Below, one piece after another: positions 3,934 through 50,600 of a stretch of DNA of 64,000 nt. The stretch lies in contig SJRY01000275.1 in the NCBI GenBank assembly GCA_011319805.1, forward strand, positions 372,001 through 436,000. Reading direction: 5' to 3'. Position 1 is the stretch's first letter, and every line of letters starts with the position of its first letter. A program made the translations under genes and the position numbers. The notes under the pieces are model-generated. The model made no database searches, was not told where the DNA came from, and saw only the letters and a list, made by a program, of their open reading frames with translations. Origin of the DNA: Macrocybe gigantea (Eukaryota; Basidiomycota; Agaricomycetes; Agaricales; Callistosporiaceae).

Positions 3934-4726
3934 TTAGGCGACCGCAATCGGAGTGGGGACGGTCGTTTGGTACCATGAGTTGAGTGTGTGGTACATTTGA
4001 ATGACCGCTTTCTTTGCGGGGCTGACCGCGCTGGCAGTTTCTTCCTTGACTTCCTCATCAAGGATGTCGCTCGTGCTGCGCTTCCAGTTGAAGTGGTGCC
4101 CGGTCGCCCAACCCATGATGGACTCGCTCTTCTCGTCCTCCTCGATTATGTCGTTGGCCGAGCGTTTCCAGTCAAAGTGATGGCCAGTCGCCCAGCCCAT
4201 GATGGACTCGGTCTTATCGTCCTCCTCCAGAATGTCACTCGCGCTGCGCTTCCAGTTGAAGTGATGACCAGTCGCCCAGCCCATCGTAGACTCGGTCTTC
4301 TCGTCCTCGTCGATGATGTCGTTGGCGGAGCGCTTCCAGTTGAAGTGATGACCAGTGGCCCAACCCATGGCAGACTCGTTCTGCGCTTCGTTGTCGACGA
4401 TGTCATCAGCGGAGCGCTTCCAGTTGAAGTGGTGGCCGGTCGCCCAGCCCATCGTGGACTCGGTCTGCGCTTCATTTTCAACGATGTCGTCTGCAGAACG
4501 CTTCCAGTTGAAGTGATGACCGGTCGCCCAGCCCATCGCGGATGCCGTCTGCGCTTCGTTTTCAACGATATCGTCCGCAGAGCGCTTCCAATTAAAATGA
4601 TGGCCGGTCGCCCAGCCCATTGCCTATGTGACCACATACGAACAGAGATGAAGTCAGTGGCATCGTTCATACATAGGCAGCCTGCTGTCTGCTCACAGGT
4701 GCGTTCACTGAGGTCTGTTGAGACAT
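3934..4726 (-). CDS. Seven-repeat peptide precursor with kexin-type Lys-Arg sites
   Basis: The predicted product is 247 residues. Exon 1 (4726-4673) encodes an 18-residue hydrophilic leader beginning MSQQTSVNAP. A 49-base intron (4672-4624, GTATGA..CTGAC..CATAG) joins it in phase to exon 2 (4623-3934). Exon 2 encodes seven units of exactly 28 residues. Each has the core MGWATGHHFNW, a Lys-Arg pair, then SADDIV-like acidic spacer residues. The core is identical in all units except one Asn-to-Asp change, while the spacers vary. A 58-residue tail with no further core follows. The layout is that of Kex2-processed repeat precursors (yeast alpha-factor, dikaritin RiPPs), so release of seven near-identical peptides is inferred. 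No signal peptide is evident. No UstYa-type oxidase or other tailoring gene was recognised nearby. The peptide sequence is not one I recognise. Confidence 0.85.
4030..4620 (-). repeat. 84-base coding tandem repeat, seven units
   Basis: The core ATG codons fall at 4620, 4536, 4452, 4368, 4284, 4200 and 4116 (minus strand), an exact 84-base period. The part encoding the core and Lys-Arg is almost invariant at protein level. The spacer codons diverge, most strongly toward the 3' end, where runs of Asp/Glu replace the ENEAQ spacer. The period is a multiple of three, so copy-number change keeps the frame. Confidence 0.95.
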
Positions 4727-4786: not shown

Positions 4787-4796
4787 CTTTATATAA
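4787..4796 (-). promoter_or_regulatory. TATA box of the repeat-peptide gene
   Basis: Read on the minus strand the sequence is TTATATAAAG, 61 bases upstream of the proposed ATG at 4726. This spacing supports the short first exon and argues against a long unseen upstream exon carrying a signal peptide. Confidence 0.6.
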
Positions 4797-5109: not shown

Positions 5110-5640
5110 TGGAATTCATTCCAGTGAGTCCGTCGCTGTTCAACGTTCAGTATTTGCCTGCTCTCTGACTATTACCGGTGCCTCATAGACCGCGAGGAAA
5201 AAGCTGCCGCCCACGAAGCCTATCGAAGGTCAAGATGGCCCACCCCTTTACTGGTGGTTCATAACTGAGGACGAATACTTCCGCCTGAGCAAGCTTTTTG
5301 GTCATGACTTTCAAGGAATAGGCATGGGTGCCACAGCGCCGTCCATGGTCTTCCGCGTCCCTGCAAGGGCTGCGGCAAATATACGGAATTCATCGACTGG
5401 TAGATGTTTCGTCCATCTCGCATTCTGTAAGTATTCGTTGATCACTCTTTAGGGTATGGACGCTCTGCAAAGGGGCGCGCACTCGACGGAACTCATGTTT
5501 AGTGCCCTGAGGAATGGCCATCAAGGAGACGAACGACAGCATGACGTATATTGCTCCGAATGTGGCACGATCGTTGCCCACTCGCACAACGATGTCGAGG
5601 GCGGAGCGCCCGAATTCGTTTAGCCACCGTGAGTCAGATC
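5110..5640 (+). pseudogene. Broken gene for a small Cys-pair protein
   Basis: From an ATG at 5110 there is MEFIP, a GTGAGT..CATAG intron, then an open stretch with PPLYWWFITEDEYFRLSKLF. A frame change follows before PCKGCGKYTEFIDW. Further on comes VYCSECGTIVAHSHNDV and a stop (GGAPEFV). The two Cys-x-x-Cys pairs suggest a small metal-binding protein, but the reading frame is interrupted at about 5340-5360 and again near 5400. It may be a pseudogene or carry assembly indels like other genes in this window. A related relic lies at 3205-3420. The family is not recognised. Confidence 0.45.
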
Positions 5641-6524
5641 TTTTCCAGCAGCCCCTAACACTCATCCATTCCTTCGCGAATTCAACTCAACAGCGCCTCA
5701 ATCGCTCTGATTACCTGGTAGGTAACATTTGTCAAAGAGTGAGAAAGAGGAAACTCAGGTACGGTGACACGTCTTGGAAGCTGATTGCGCGTTCATGACG
5801 GGCATATCCGCATCCGCTTCCTGCGCCTAGATCTCATGGGGTAAATGGTGGCTCGATGACAACGGCAGTACCGCAGCATATCGGGCAGAGAAGAGAAGGC
5901 GGGAAATAGGCCGATCATAAAAATAATGGCGCTCCATATTGCTGCCGTTACGCAGTCGACGCCGTTGAACCTGAATGGCATACAACATGTTGACTTACAC
6001 AGTATGGGCTACGTTTGCCGATTGAATAATGTGGTTAAGTAGTATTCGCTCTTTCTGTCAGATATTCGAGGGGTGCGTGTTGCGCCCCTCGTCGATGATC
6101 ACCTGCATGTAATCGGCTTTTCGTGAAACCATGCGGCCAATAAGTGCTTGTACATAGCATGTCAACCTGTCGGTAGATGCCCCACTTTCGTTCTAACGTC
6201 AGTGCGACCTGCTTCAACGACAATGCGAGTGTCATCATGTGTTCTTCATTTGCTTTCTGGAGATTCATTTCTTGCGGAATATTATCACTAGAGAATGATA
6301 CGAGCGGAGAGCAAGGATTCTAGCCCACAAAGACGCACCATTCCTCCTGTCTTTGCGGCGCGCAGTTAGGATGGGATCCGAAGTATAATTGCATAGAGGT
6401 AGAAGTTAACCGGGTCTAGTCCGTGTTGGGAATACAAAGTATTTGCTTGTGGAGATGGGTGGAGACATTATTTCTTCAAAGAGTGACGTGGTTCTTGCCC
6501 ACCCACCATTCAGTAATCACTCCA
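5641..6524. other. Gene-poor stretch
   Basis: Only short open frames without domain content or splice logic are visible here. It separates the broken Cys-pair gene from the secreted-protein gene. Confidence 0.5.
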
Positions 6525-7160
6525 ATGCACCTTGCGCTATTCTCTGTAGCGGCGTTCATTGCCGTAGCGGCCGTCGCTGCTCCAACAGTTTCAGACGTCG
6601 AAGACCAGCGAATCTTAGACGTGAGTCATACGTGTTTGCGCAGTTTCCCAATATCCACAAGGAGTGTACATGTCCAGATCGACCGCACTCATGTGAAGGC
6701 TTCTGCAAATGCACCTCCCATTCCTAGCATCGAAGAGATCAAGCAACACATGCACGACCGTGATTACGTTGCTAACAAGTCCCTGTTCTACGAGGGCCCA
6801 GATTGGGAATTTTTTGAAGGCGTCATGAAGTACGAAAAGCAGCACAGTCGTTACATCTTGGGCTCGTTCTGGCTCGACAACGGGCGGTCGTGGTTCCGGC
6901 AATGGGAGGATATGACGGAGTTTTGGGACCGCGCTTCGACTGCCATGGCGGAGTTGTCATCCATGGAGGCGCTGGTTCTCTTGCCCAGCGACGCGAATGG
7001 GACAGAGTGGAAAAGAGGGACATTCTGGGACAGGATCGAGTGGCCTGTCCTCACAGAACGGAACCCTGCTATTACAAAAATTATCCGTGTGAGTTTGGAA
7101 AACGATAGACACGAAGTGATTTATGAAAAGCAGGAGGGAGTAGATAACATTCTGCATTGA
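6525..7160 (+). CDS. Small secreted protein, unrecognised family
   Basis: The start at 6525 gives a clear signal peptide (MHLALFSVAAFIAVAAVAAP); the longer in-frame ATG at 6423 would bury it, so 6525 is preferred. A likely 57-base intron (GTGAGT..GTCCAG, about 6620-6676) keeps the frame whether spliced or not. The mature part is about 170 residues, rich in Trp and acidic residues, with EEIKQHMHDRDYV near the start and FWDRIEWPVL, NPAITKIIRV near the end. This overall layout resembles unannotated secreted proteins I associate with other fungi, but I cannot name a family or activity. A GTGAGT within the C-terminal codons leaves open a shorter spliced end. Confidence 0.6.
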   Translation: MHLALFSVAAFIAVAAVAAPTVSDVEDQRILDVSHTCLRSFPISTRSVHVQIDRTHVKASANAPPIPSIEEIKQHMHDRDYVANKSLFYEGPDWEFFEGVMKYEKQHSRYILGSFWLDNGRSWFRQWEDMTEFWDRASTAMAELSSMEALVLLPSDANGTEWKRGTFWDRIEWPVLTERNPAITKIIRVSLENDRHEVIYEKQEGVDNILH

Positions 7161-16124: not shown

Positions 16125-16677
16125 ATGAAGCTCTTTGGCATCTTCGCGTTCACCTCCCTTCTCGCTACCACCGCGTTTGCGCAACGCGCCTTCATCGGTT
16201 ACCCTCCTGATGGTACATCCGTGCAGGCAGGGTCCCCCCTGACTGTCGAAATTGACCGACCAGTACGACTATTTTTGGGCACCGACTTTCAGAGCACGCG
16301 CTAACTCTAATCTTCAGAACTCGCTTTCCAGCTCGCAGGAAGTCGCCGTCGTGATCGCGATCCAGAGCTGTGCGGCCTCGCCCTGCAGGCCCCCGACGGA
16401 CATCATGGGCACCGTGCTCTACAATGGCGGGTACAATCCGCAGTACCAGCCTAGCGCGCCGAGGTGGAAGCCACCCCATCAGAACTTCACCGTCACCATC
16501 CCCGCGACGACGCCGAAGGGCAAGGCGCAGCTGGACGTGGCGCATGTGTCACTGATAGGCGTAAGTTGTTGCTGCTGCGAAGATTGCTGTGCCTTTGAGC
16601 ACTGATCATGTTGCTTGCATTAGGCTGGCTTGGCACCATTCCTTGAGACCATGAATGTTACTCTGAATATCAACTAA
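16125..16677 (+). CDS. Small secreted beta-rich protein, tandem copy 1 (intact)
   Basis: Three exons: a signal peptide (MKLFGIFAFTSLLATTAFAQ) plus AFIGYPPDGTSVQAGSPLTV; a central exon with VAVVIAIQSC, two cysteines, GTVLYNGGYNP and QNFTVTIP; and a short last exon starting AGLAPFLETMNVTL. Introns begin after IDRP and after VSLIG, both in phase 0. The mature protein is about 125 residues with alternating hydrophobic strands, suggesting an Ig-like or similar beta-sandwich. I place it in a family of small secreted proteins of mushroom-forming fungi without known function. It is the best-preserved member of the array that runs to 20577. Possible roles at the cell surface or in interaction are only inference from secretion. 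Confidence 0.8.
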
Positions 16678-20036: not shown

Positions 20037-20577
20037 ATGTTGTGCTGGGCTCTCCTCTTCGCCGGGTTCGCAAATGCCCAGGCGAGCTACATCGGCCAAC
20101 CCGAGAATGGAACGACCGTCTACCGAGGCCAGCCAATGACTATACAGGTCGTGCGACCCGTAAGCACATCTGCGTTCCGTTCTTACCGCTCCTACCACAC
20201 AGCTGATGCCGAGCCTCAAACCACAGAACAGCATCCAAGGCTCCACCGAAGCCGGCATCGTCATCGGGCTCTACGCCTGCCCAGAGACAGATTCTCGGCC
20301 TTGCCCTAGCCCGAACCAGGTCGGCTCGGTCCTCTACAAGGGCACGTTCGACCCGCAGATGCACGAGATGCCCGGCAGACCGTACCAGAACTTCACCGTC
20401 ACCGTGCCCATGGCGGATTATCTTCACGGACGAGCGCAGCTGAGTGTCAACCGCTTTCATTTGATCGGCGTCAGTGGTTTATGCTCCTCTGTAGCGTAAG
20501 GTTACGAACGTTTCTTCTAGGCTGGCCCTTCGGCCGTGTTAGAGAGCAATGCCGTGCTCGTCAATGTCGTAGACTAG
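20037..20577 (+). CDS. Small secreted-protein family, copy 4, abutting copy 3
   Basis: The ATG at 20037 gives a shortened signal peptide (MLCWALLFAGFANAQ) followed by ASYIGQPENGTTVYRGQP and an exon ending VVRP at 20159. The central exon from 20227 begins NSIQGSTEAGIVIGLYAC and includes GSVLYKGTFDP, QNFTVTVP and VNRFHLIG. The last exon (20521-20577) reads AGPSAVLESNAVLVNVVD. It has no room for a promoter of its own, because copy 3's coding sequence ends 25 bases upstream. It therefore probably depends on readthrough from the copy 3 promoter. The junction looks like the scar of an unequal crossover. Confidence 0.65.
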
Positions 20578-38755: not shown

Positions 38756-41700
38756 TTAACGATGGGAAGCTGGGGTCATAGATGCTAGCTGACCCTTGAC
38801 AGCGACCCACTTTTGCTTCTTCGCCTCATTGTCCTTGGCGCCCGCGGGCGCCTCGCCTTGAGCGCTGCTCTGTTCTCCGTCGTCCTCTGACGTCACGCTT
38901 TCTTCGTCTGCATCAACACCGGTGCTGTCGGCCTCGGAACTTGAGGAAGATGAAGAGGAGGATGCTGCGGCTGTCGACGACTCATCTGTCGCAGTGCAGA
39001 GGGCGCAGTCACAGGGAGCAACGCACTGGCTGTGGATATCTGTTCAGACGATGTTGAGGTACTTGCTTTCGTCCCAGACGACTCGCTCTTTGTGGCCGGA
39101 GCCTCGGCGCGTTTCTTGCCCTTCGTGCGACTTTCTTTACGTTCGGAGCGCTAAAAGTCATCATGATTAACGTTAATCTACTCGGGTTTGGGAAAAAATT
39201 CACCTCCTTTGCCTCTTTCTCCTCTTTCTGTTTATGAAGGGTGGATGGAGTTAACGACAAGCTTGAATGATGAAAAATACATCCGACCTCTCGTAATTCC
39301 TTTTCCTCTTTCTGTAAAAGAATGGCCGTGAATTATTGAACAGTGAAATATTCTCGACAAACATCTACCTCTTTCTTCTCCTTCTCCTCGGCCTCTTTCT
39401 TTTCTTTGGCTTCACGCTGAGACGGAAATGAGAAATGACGATGGGAATGAAATCAAAATACACGCCACCTCCGCTTTTTCCCTTTCTTGCTTCAACTTCT
39501 CGCGCATCTCACGTTCCTGAACTATCCACGCAGCAACTTCATCGACACTTTCTCGCGGACGAGTCTTGTTTTTGAGCAGGTAGCCTTGCAGACTTGCAAC
39601 CTAAGAACAAAAGGCATCAACTCACGTCGTATGAGATGCAAAGCATCAGCGTGGGAGGGGCGAATTTGACCAAAGGAGAAAGGAACCACTTTTCCCCAGA
39701 GAACGCCTTAACCCACATGGTAGAGGTACTTACACTCAGCTCGTTCTCAGGGATGGCCTCGGCAAATCGCTTGGCAAGGTCGGAAATCTCTTCTTCGCTT
39801 AGGAGAGGGATTGCATGCGTCCGTGCTTTACGTTTCGGCAGGGGAAGATTCTTCTGAGATGAATCTTGCTCGGTCGATGGCTCCTCTGACGAAGAAGTTT
39901 CTGAAGCGTGGCGTCGGAAGGCTTATAGGGGAAGAAGCACTTGAATATGCCCTCTGCCTGCCATTTCGTCGCGTGTGTGAAATTAATCCAGACGTCCATT
40001 CGTCCCGGACGGCTGAGCGCAGGGTCCAATCGCTCAATATGATTCGTCGTTGCGAAAAGGAGACTGTTTTGTGTTCGAACCAAAACGGAAATGCCGGAAT
40101 GAGATAAACGGCAGAAACCCATGTGCGTGATAGTGCTCACCGGCCTTCTGCAGCTGCAACGCCGTCAAGGCTGTTCAGGAGGCCACTCAAACTAAGAGTC
40201 GAGCCGTCATTATTCTCGTTATTAGTGGTCTCCTTGTCTTTGACAGTGGTGGTTGAAGAGGAGGGAGAACCTGTGGAAGTCGAATCTCGACTGACGGACC
40301 GAGTGAAAGCGGCGTCCAAATCTTCCAAAAGCAGGATACACCTGGGGCAGGTAGAATCAATATTCCATATATTCTTTTGATGTTTGGGAAACTGCGCGTG
40401 CCGACTAACCTGGACGGAACATGACCCATCAGCGTCGTCAGCATATTGTCGCTCATCCTGCATGAGACAAATTGACACATTAATGATGAGCCACAGTGAC
40501 AGCATGAGAAGCGAGATCACCCTTTAGAAGACAAAGACACAACGTAAATATCCAGTCCCAGCTCCCCAGCTAATGAATGAATGAGAGATGTCTTGCCACT
40601 GTCAAAGTAACGTCCTTAAGACACTGAAATGATTGGCGAGTGTATTTTCTAAAAGTGCCGTACCTTCCGGGGACACCATGAAGGAGATAGCCCCTTCTGA
40701 AAGGAATGCCTTAAATCCGAGAAATTAATTGTCAGATCACCATGGTCCGGCATCAAAAAGAAGTTGAGCAAACCTCTTTCCGCATACCTACAAAAGAGGA
40801 AGATGAGCTTGCAACAATACGTCTTTAAGAAAAGACTGACGCACCAGTCTTCTGAGGTAAGAAAATCTTTACAGTCAGCTAGGAGCATGTCTTTCACGCC
40901 TGGTTGAAGAACGATGGAGCTCATTGGACGTTTCTGTCGTGCGCCATTCCACCTCCAGCCGCCGTACGTCCTGCGAAGCAGACACGATTCGGCACATTGA
41001 ATAGACAGCTGTCCATTTCAAATACTCACGTATCTGCCAAATATATGTGAACGCGATGTTCGGCATCTTTCTCGTACTCTCGCTTAGCCTCCAACACGAG
41101 TTTCTTCAAAATGTCATTGTTGCGGGCGACAACGCTATAAGGGGAGGGCGCTATGAGAGTAGTCCAACATACCCGAGGACGCCGGAAATTACCTGATCTT
41201 TAAAGACGCTCCATGGCCGTAATCCGGATAGTTACGCTTCGTGCGGGTTATCTGATAAAATTAGACACTTGACTCAGCACCATTGAATCCCGGAAACTCC
41301 GAACTGAGGGCGAAGGGGAATGACTGCTATTCTCCGCTCACCCTAAGCAAGTGGCCACGGTAATAAATGGTGTGCATCGTGTCTGTTGCAGGTCCGAACC
41401 ATCGTGAACCCCTGAAATCCTAAAAAGGAAATGACCCATACCAAGGCTTGGCATGAATGCAACTTTTCGTTTCCGCCGACCGTGAACCAAGGTATCGTCA
41501 TCTTCATCGTCGTCCTCCAGGTCTCCCGTGGTCGATTGAGTGATACCCGAACGACTCACGACGCGAGTCGTAATGTCGAATTCTCTGCTACGGCCCCAAG
41601 CAGGTTGCTAAAATAGCTATTAGTGGCGCAGTAGACTAAAAACCAAGTTCCGATGACTCCACCTTCGACAACCAGTGCATGAGCCTGCGAAAGATGTCAG

Positions 41701-47618: not shown

Positions 47619-50600
47619 ATGCCAGACCCAAGCTACGAAAGACTGCCGCTGGAAGAGCAGGAGCCCATCGCGACCAGGTCTAATGCCAGCCGGTCACACA
47701 CCCCTGTTTTGGTCGTCAAACCACCAATATATTACGGAGAAGGACCGTTTGATCCACCAAGTTCGGACAGCGAGGACGAGGAGGATGCGCGAAATGAAAG
47801 CGGGTCATTATTAGAGAAAAATGGGCCTTCGAGTCCTGGGCTGGCTGAGCTTGGAAGTAATTATGCTTCCGGTTCTGGTGTCGATCACAGCGCCTCAGAA
47901 AGAAAGGTTTGTGATATCTTATATATCCCAGATGTACTGGGCTGGACGATGTTTGCTCATTATTCTCGTGTCGATATTCACGCGTCCGGTCTTCTGCAGA
48001 GACCGGCCTCCCTCCGTTTTCTTGTCACACTCCTTGCAATTCTTGTCGGGTTTTCTATACTTGTTGGACTATTGCAGCAGGCACATATTCCGATACACCG
48101 TTCCGTAGACCTGGGCAGAAGAAAATAACAATGGATCACATGTTTAATGGAACATTTTTTGTGGACGTGAAGAGTGTGCATTGGGTACCAGAAGGTAATG
48201 TTGACTACGAATCATAACTTGCTTTTGCTTCTGAGTGAGCATTCTATCTTAGCGGGGACGGTGTTTTCTCTATATTTGAGGATGATTATCTCAAACTAGT
48301 CGATTTGAAGACGAATACTACGCGAAACCTAGTTTCTAGATATGACATAAGAAATGTGCGTGAATCTTGTTCCTTTGTGAAGGCGTCCAGAGAAGTGGAT
48401 TCATGAATGCAGGAACAACACGACATCTTGTACTTCTCGAGCTGGCAAATTTCGCCGGACATGAAGTACCTGCTTGTGAAAGCGGACTATCGCAAGGCAT
48501 GTGTCGCGGCTGGCTTCAGCTTGGTGACGCGCCTGATTTTTCCTTTCAGCAATGGAGATGGTCGAGCTTCGGAAATTACTATGTTCATGACATTGAAGCA
48601 AAGAGAACTCATCCCATTATACCTCCGACGAATCCATCAAGGACGGCATATGCAGCATGGTCACCAACGGGAGATTCCATAGCTTATGTGGTGGATAACG
48701 ATCTTTACGTCCTAACATCGCCCGCGTATGTGCATCTCAGTCATTCTCAGAAGCACTCAGACAGTAAACATTCCTCTGCCTCCCAAAACCAGTCCTTCTA
48801 CATCTCCTATCCGCATTACCACTTCCGGCAATGCCTCCCTCTTCCATGGGGTACCGGACTGGGTTTATGAAGAAGAAATCTTCTCGAGCGACTATGCATT
48901 GTGGTGGTCTCCTGACTCATCAAAGCTCGCTTTCCTCGCCTTTGACGAAACCGCGGTTGACGAATTCAGCTTCCCCGTATACAACCCTACAGACGACAAC
49001 TACGCTGTCATTCCTTATACACACGACGTTATCATGAAGTACCCGAAACCAGGATATAATAATCCCCTGGTCTCCGTGCATGTATTCGACCTCAAGCATT
49101 TCCTAGAGCAAGCCAAGGTGGAGGGCGATTTGCCTGCGTCGGAACACACTTACGAGTTGCAATGGCCTCAGCGACATCTTGCGAATAACAGCATCGTTAT
49201 GGAAGTTGCATGGGTCGGTAACTCCACGTTGCTCTTAAAGGAGGTTAATAGAAATGCGGATAACGGTCATGTTGTGCTTTTCAATCTTGACGACCGGCAC
49301 GTCCAAACTGGAGCGCAAGGAACAGTGGTCAGGAAACTCGGCAAAGATGGGGAACATGGCGATGATGGCTGGATTGACAATGTACGTTTTTTCAATCAGA
49401 ATGATGGACGCGCAGGACTGTACTGAGTTCGCTGTGATCCTGCTTCATCTCTGGTACTAGACGCAAAACATTCGCCCCATTCCAGGCTCGCTTACAGACG
49501 ACGGGTCAGAGGCGTACCTAGATATCGTACCAACTAAAGAAGGCTACAACCACATTGCGCTCTTCAGCCCTGCCAGCTCCAGCACGCCGAAGTTTTTGAC
49601 AACTGGGAAGTGGGAAGTTACCAATGGAATTGAAGCTGTCGATGAGGAGCGGGGGATTGTGTATGTCGTCGTCCTGTCTCGGGCGAATGAAAAGATGATG
49701 CATCTTCGTGAACCGTTTCGTTGACTCTAGATATTTCCAAGCTGCCAAGACGTCGTCCATTGGTCGCCATATCTACTCTGTGCCTCTTCCAGAGTCTAGC
49801 TCCGGCGGAGTTGTTGCACCAGCGCCACTGACCGATGATAGCAAACCAGCGTTCCACACAACACACTTCTCCCCTGGCGCGAGCTTTTATGTCTTGAACT
49901 ATGCGGGACCCAGCATCCCTTGGCAGAGAATTGTTCAGGTGGACAACTCGTGTAAGCCTCTTGTTCTTATACATACACGATTGGGACTGACCTTGCTATT
50001 TTCTCCCCGCTATTGCGCCATTGATCATGACCTGTGTGATCCTTTCCTGACAGCTTTTCATTATCAGCTGAGCGATAACGAGGAGCTCCGAAACACGACG
50101 CTTGAATATGAATCAGCGACTATAACCCATTCGACCATAGTAAGCGACGGTTATGGTGCGTTCTTTTTCCCTGTCAGAGTGGGTGCAGTCCTCGTTGATA
50201 TTCTTGACTATGTCCGCAGAACTGAATGTCAAGGAGATTCGGCCTCCGCACATGGATGATTCTGGACGCATAAAGTACCCGGTCCTTTTCCGCGTGTACG
50301 TCTTGCTCTTTTATGGGAGGGCCGTCTTCTGACCCTCGGTCCCATGGGCTATCCAGCTACGGTGGCCCGCAAAGTCAATTGGTCGATCTCAAGTTCGCGC
50401 GTGATTGGCACGACTACCTAGCCTGTGGGCTGTCCTATATCGTGGTAATCGTGGATGGTCGAGGCACTGGATTCAAGGGCCGAAAGTTGCGGAATCCTGT
50501 CAAGGACAATTTGGGATTCTTTGAGACAATAGATCAGATTAACGCAGCCAAGTGAGTGTGCCAGACACGCCTGATATGGCGACCTTCTGACGGATGCCTG

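Follow-up and report, generated by a model that had tools for sequence, protein, structure and literature searches.

Organization of the Repeat Gene

We analyzed a 64-kb window of the Macrocybe gigantea genome (C274:372001-436000 of the assembly) and, within it, a predicted minus-strand gene built around seven tandem 84-base units, referred to here as the repeat gene. Its repeat array was found once in the 41.2-Mb, 333-contig assembly. The features of the gene, in window coordinates, are as follows.

4788..4795, minus strand: TATA box TATATAAA, called from the sequence, ~60 bases 5' of the start codon
4726-3934, minus strand: predicted repeat gene, two exons, from the ATG at 4726 to the stop codon at 3934
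4673..4726, minus strand: exon 1, encoding the hydrophilic leader MSQQTSVNAPVSRQQAAY, with no signal peptide seen by hydropathy or gene-model enumeration
4624..4672, minus strand: predicted phase-0 intron of 49 nucleotides (nt), GTATGA...CTGAC...CATAG, with a CTGAC branch site and a TAG acceptor
3934..4623, minus strand: exon 2, with seven repeat units, C-terminal tail and stop codon, from translation of the open reading frame (ORF)
4033..4620, minus strand: seven 84-base units, MGWATGHHF[N/D]W-KR-S[A/T]xDI[VIL][ED] plus an acidic spacer, from Tandem Repeats Finder and translation
3937..4032, minus strand: C-terminal tail SAVSPAKKAVIQMYHTLNSWYQTTVPTPIAVA, from translation, with neither Cys nor CaaX

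The start codon at 4726 is the first ATG downstream of the TATA box (4795-4788). Splicing of the 49-nt intron (4672-4624) is plausible from its sequence, and of the 9 AGs listed within the 150 bases 5' of the first unit, the acceptor at 4624 alone leads into the repeat frame. Use of a different donor, at 4696 (GTGAGC), would give a 73-nt intron equally in frame and would shorten the leader to MSQQTSVNAPA. The predicted protein has 247 residues (~28 kDa, pI 5.1); Trp and His each occur 15 times and Cys is absent. Averaged over 19 residues, hydropathy nowhere in the protein exceeds 0.28, so that no membrane helix is seen.

Regularity and Conservation of the Repeat Units

The repeat unit of the predicted protein is MGWATGHHFNWKR followed by an acidic spacer, repeated seven times at an exact spacing of 28 residues, with all six core-to-core steps being exactly 84 bases. 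As the last spacer runs into the tail, no eighth core delimits the end of the last unit. Tandem Repeats Finder reported this array and no other in the 64 kb, with periods of 84, 168 and 252 (scores of 540, 639 and 608). The only change to the core MGWATGHHFNW across the seven units is an N-to-D substitution in copy 6, and a Lys-Arg pair (KR) follows the core directly in every unit. An initial annotation of this stretch had described just such an arrangement, seven 28-residue units of 84-base period with a near-invariant core and KR always next, and each of these features is borne out.

Between the seven copies, the proportions of synonymous and nonsynonymous differences (pS and pN) are 0.63 and 0.15 overall, and the ratio pN/pS is 0.23 in the repeat frame compared with 0.38-2.03 in the other five frames, so that the frame is not due to chance. 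The constraint is strongest in the core (pS 0.67, pN 0.010, pN/pS ~0.015) and in KR (pS 0.43, pN 0), followed by SAxDI (pS 0.86, pN 0.20) and the remaining spacer (pS 0.52, pN 0.31). The 28-residue spacing has been kept in six of six steps despite near-saturated synonymous sites. These values, together with a DNA identity among copies of 67-86% and the constant 84-base spacing, indicate that the copies are old and that the motif has been maintained by selection rather than by recent duplication.

The conservation does not stop at the dibasic pair. Unit positions 14 (S), 17 (D) and 18 (I), all past KR, are invariant in the seven units, the Ala after KR-Ser is present in six of them, and the Ser itself is retained across both TCN and AGC codons. 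Invariant columns account for three of the five positions directly after KR versus none of the next ten (p ~0.02 by hand arithmetic). Because conservation extends beyond KR into SAxDI, the unit is better written, from the sequence, as MGWATGHHFNWKRSAxDI (the KR-containing motif peptide being MGWATGHHFNWKRSADDI) than as a core plus a cut site.

Searches for Relatives and Structure Prediction

Relatives of the repeat protein were sought in a set of 5.8 billion proteins, whose organism make-up is not stated, where one search gave 3833 candidates with none at E ≤ 0.001 and a further search gave 123 candidates with none at E ≤ 10. The repeat pattern had no match in the viral collection IMG/VR, and six stretches in the bacterial and archaeal genomes of GTDB fit it, none of which encodes a relative. 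All five Pfam matches at E ≤ 10 fall below their cut-offs (best DUF7751, E 0.0054), a match to intersectin-2 in the PDB (E 0.35) was rejected as a single chance match, and five strings taken from the core have no occurrence in the literature searched. Because these collections consist mainly of prokaryotic or viral sequences, this absence says little about fungi. It would fit a repeat that is decaying or not expressed and now has no function; the intact frame, the core pN/pS of ~0.015 and the near-saturated synonymous change point instead to long purifying selection and make such decay highly improbable.

AlphaFold, run without an alignment on exon 2 alone, returned a beta-solenoid with a mean predicted local distance difference test score (pLDDT) of 60.7 and ten-residue blocks reaching 81; the lowest of the five models scored 31.7. 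According to excerpted text on the subject, AlphaFold 2 often produces beta-solenoid models for random perfect repeats (PMC11795689). Because the program invents such folds for repeats, the solenoid was rejected as a real fold and was counted neither for nor against any reading.

Gene Models and the Signal Peptide

The presence of a signal peptide was assessed by hydropathy and by enumeration of gene models. Ordinary models ran from 6400 to the first unit (4620) with at most two introns (the first of 40-250 nt, the second of 40-150 nt), GT[AG]NG donors and YAG acceptors. Under these rules only two models connect to the repeats; each begins at 4726 with a hydrophilic N terminus, and no model between 6400 and 4620 bears a signal peptide. 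Peak hydropathy over the first 30 residues is 0.64 for the repeat protein versus 2.74 for a secreted-looking neighbor at 6525. This neighbor, an ORF at 6525-7160 on the plus strand and divergent from the repeat gene, encodes a protein that begins MHLALFSVAAFIAVAAVAAPT, is clearly signal-peptide-like and has no Pfam family above cut-off.

Relaxed rules, which allowed a single intron of 35-900 nt and accepted every GT or GCA as donor and every AG as acceptor, gave 41 models, of which the best 20 were examined. Among these 20 the most hydrophobic start is at 5542 (MLSFVSLMAIPQG, peak 2.36), which requires an intron of 859 nt (donor GTGCGC) or 838 nt (donor GTCCAT), and the second is at 5305 (MTKKLAQAEVFVLSYEPP, peak 1.71), with a 628-nt intron and the donor GTAAAG; the starts at 5665 (peak 1.59) and 5119 (1.47) need introns of more than 400 nt. 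Because no ordinary-intron model of the repeat gene yields a signal peptide, the proposal in the initial annotation that its product is a secreted peptide is unsupported. As read from its sequence, the repeat gene is a real gene and an odd orphan, with a layout resembling that of the parent of a small secreted peptide but without a secretion signal.

Comparison with KEX2-processed Repeat Proteins

Ascomycete alpha-factor precursors share with the repeat protein a repeated Trp-containing core, KR and an acidic spacer, a likeness of layout. In the excerpts used here, the surveys that define KEX2-processed repeat proteins (KEPs) demand an N-terminal signal peptide (PMC9769878, PMC7329392, PMC6339444), and one of them also asks for a fragment resembling at least two others after dibasic cutting and a length of at most 800 residues (PMC9769878). 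With KR in all seven units and 247 residues the repeat protein has the latter properties; by hydropathy and gene-model enumeration it shows no N-terminal signal peptide for the endoplasmic reticulum (ER). The repeat protein is like the agaricomycete KEPs excerpted from the same survey (Lentinula edodes KEP 2599 and Pleurotus ostreatus KEP 1091723; PMC9769878) in its near-identical tandem units, each with a dibasic site preceded by Trp, and in being short. Unlike them, it lacks a signal peptide and any XA/XP run, and its 28-residue unit combines a His-rich core with a long acidic spacer. Among the agaricomycete KEP peptides quoted there, Trp precedes the dibasic site in QYKAPSW, GPPAPSW, SGTGEASAADW and SGVAADW, with QIPAELPTKSINGNIEPYKV as a counter-example (PMC9769878). 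The kexin-precursor arrangement originally suggested thus stands as to its layout of core, KR and acidic spacer with Trp before the dibasic site, but the signal peptide that the KEP surveys require was not found.

Cutting at KR would yield six 26-mers (SAxDI...HHFNW, with HHFDW in one), a leader peptide that includes the first core, and the C-terminal tail. The predicted monoisotopic masses of the 26-mers, without KR, are 2844.22, 2932.24, 2901.21, 2990.28, 2976.29 and 3002.31. Because the single KR in each unit leaves the acidic spacer at the N terminus, MGWATGHHFNW itself, the peptide whose release had been anticipated, would not be freed unless a second protease acts.

The gene may be an ordinary KEP whose signal peptide escaped prediction because it sits on a distant 5' exon, because the assembly is faulty or because ER entry is non-classical, with KEX2 and KEX1 freeing six 26-residue peptides that end in HHFNW or HHFDW. 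The layout and the Trp before KR are consistent with this, as are the relaxed starts at 5542 and 5305 and the kexin-type P-domains in the genome (three P_proprotein matches, PF01483, on contigs C68 and C228, in a search for the P-domain only, the protease domain lying outside it). There is also a precedent, since the absent signal of one KEP was attributed to misannotation (PMC9769878, from excerpts). However, the 5542 and 5305 models depend on the long introns given above and bypass the TATA box and ATG at 4795/4726.

A further argument for an ordinary KEP comes from a dipeptidyl aminopeptidase gene of the DPPIV/STE13 type at 48547-49923 on the plus strand, continuing to ~51400, which accounts for all four PF00930 matches found in the genome, leaving no second such locus, and is preceded by a hydrophobic stretch. 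STE13-type enzymes trim some KEP peptides at repeated XA/XP dipeptides (PMC9769878, as excerpted), and X-Ala follows KR in six of the seven units, but the repeat unit holds a single SA. We give the DPPIV gene little weight because it lies 44 kb from the repeat gene, has housekeeping genes in between and was noticed post hoc. Overall we consider a KEP with a missed exon unlikely.

Comparison with Other Peptide Systems

For the genes around the array, 30 of 36 ORFs, chosen by a rough codon score across the window and 10 kb to its left, were scanned for domains; the repeat protein was scanned separately and five short ORFs were left out. This is not a full gene census, because the codon score was trained on long ORFs, some of them certainly spurious, and may pass over short exons. 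Among the 30 scanned ORFs we recognized no methyltransferase, P450, UstYa or kexin, and with no modifying gene found there the suggestion of a ribosomally synthesized and post-translationally modified peptide (RiPP) gains no footing from the neighborhood.

The repeat gene resembles the dikaritins (ustiloxin, phomopsin and asperipin types) in having multiple cores in repeats with KR. It differs from them in lacking a signal peptide in ordinary models and in having no match on C274 to UstYa, which we take to be the same family as DUF3328 (PF11807); the seven matches to this family are all on C203, C206 and C292. Excerpted accounts of dikaritins give them a signal peptide (PMC9769878) and UstYa/DUF3328 genes close by (PMC7329392). 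Two of the UstYa-family matches, C203:19671-20127 and C292:250039-250492, have equal or nearly equal scores and are perhaps two alleles.

Like the basidiomycete a-type mating pheromones, the repeat protein has no signal peptide; unlike them, it has no Cys and hence no CaaX, and its contig is not one of those that carry the pheromone and STE3 matches. All 28 STE3 matches (E ≤ 0.001) and all six pheromone matches (E ≤ 10) are on C170 and C292, with no pheromone or receptor gene found on C274. Identity as a mating pheromone was rejected on these grounds, in agreement with the earlier view that the product belongs to a class other than the CaaX pheromones. A weak hit to the Pfam "Pheromone" family (E 0.06, under its cut-off) at 38759-39043 was likewise rejected, being a Ser-rich low-complexity stretch. 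Several STE3 receptor and pheromone matches sit on each of C170 and C292, which points to a basidiomycete and suggests that the assembly is probably that of a dikaryon with both mating-locus haplotypes. C292 also carries a UstYa match.

Cycloamanides and borosins resemble the repeat protein in taking no signal-peptide route. The cycloamanide (MSDIN) precursors have a short conserved leader and a Pro-flanked core cut by prolyl oligopeptidase, and the borosin precursor carries a methyltransferase domain. The repeat protein has a different leader, units without Pro and no Pfam family over cut-off, hence no methyltransferase domain, and shows repeated KR instead. In excerpts, cycloamanides and borosins are described as processed in the cytosol and a-type pheromones as exported by an ATP-binding cassette (ABC) transporter (PMC9769878).

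With these precedents, the combination of a precursor-like layout and a missing signal peptide might reflect a leaderless multi-copy precursor whose KR sites are cleaved by a protease active in the cytosol or after lysis, with peptides that act intracellularly or are exported through a transporter or an unconventional route. No pathway protease, modifying enzyme or transporter was recognized in the 30 scanned ORFs, except the DPPIV gene 44 kb off, the genome not having been searched for a cytosolic KR-specific enzyme, and no peptide has been seen. We regard a leaderless precursor as possible but rather unlikely. Still more doubtful is that the repeat gene founds an undescribed fungal class of multi-copy Trp/His-rich peptides that are cut at KR in the cytosol and never enter the secretory pathway; if it did, surveys filtered on signal peptides would omit the whole class. 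Leaderless repeat precursors would escape the three KEP surveys because, in the text excerpted, those surveys filter on the signal peptide (PMC9769878, PMC7329392, PMC6339444). The repeat gene has KEP-like anatomy minus the signal peptide that defines a KEP, and its sequence shows that precursor-like anatomy under strong selection can exist without a recognizable signal peptide.

A Possible Intracellular Multivalent Array

Because the signal peptide is missing and conservation runs through KR, we tentatively favor a cytosolic protein that shows an 18-residue motif seven times, with the leaderless precursor close behind and a KEP with a missed exon third. The single-copy gene would encode a 247-residue, acidic, Cys-free cytosolic protein, with neither a signal peptide nor a membrane helix seen. 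Its functional unit would be the ~18-residue MGWATGHHFNWKRSAxDI, presented seven times on a variable acidic chain, with the KR pair forming part of the motif and left uncut rather than serving as a kexin site. Such an array would probably be multivalent, binding one partner or a metal. The sequence itself shows the repeats, the selection on them and, in the predicted gene structure, the lack of Cys and of a signal peptide; splicing, residence in the cytosol, multivalent display and an uncut KR are inferences.

Several observations weigh against an intracellular array. Multi-peptide precursors typically combine an invariant core, an invariant dibasic site and a variable acidic spacer, and the conservation of SAxDI is equally compatible with a 26-residue peptide conserved at both ends. 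The array has no known binding partner. The Trp before the dibasic site matches the several agaricomycete KEP peptides listed above (PMC9769878, in excerpt), and two KEP types, both listed for Ascomycota in the excerpted text, contain di-histidine motifs (PMC7329392).

Genomic Surroundings

The domains recognized around the repeat gene included mitochondrial ATP synthase B (in the left flank), beta-galactosidase domains, two Nis1-family proteins, STT3, RNase H2C, dynamin, DPPIV and AA12-like exons. Scanning the window against Rfam (at the gathering threshold) and for tRNAs gave no hits. An ORF at 1580-2005 on the minus strand, outside the domain scan, lies upstream of long minus-strand ORFs at 297-1543 and opens with MRDLPHEIWLHVAQFIPALVLRDLLSLN, which is presumably F-box-like. 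The two Nis1-family genes (PF19271), at 16243-16602 and 20164-20496 on the plus strand, are ~4 kb apart and are perhaps a local duplication.
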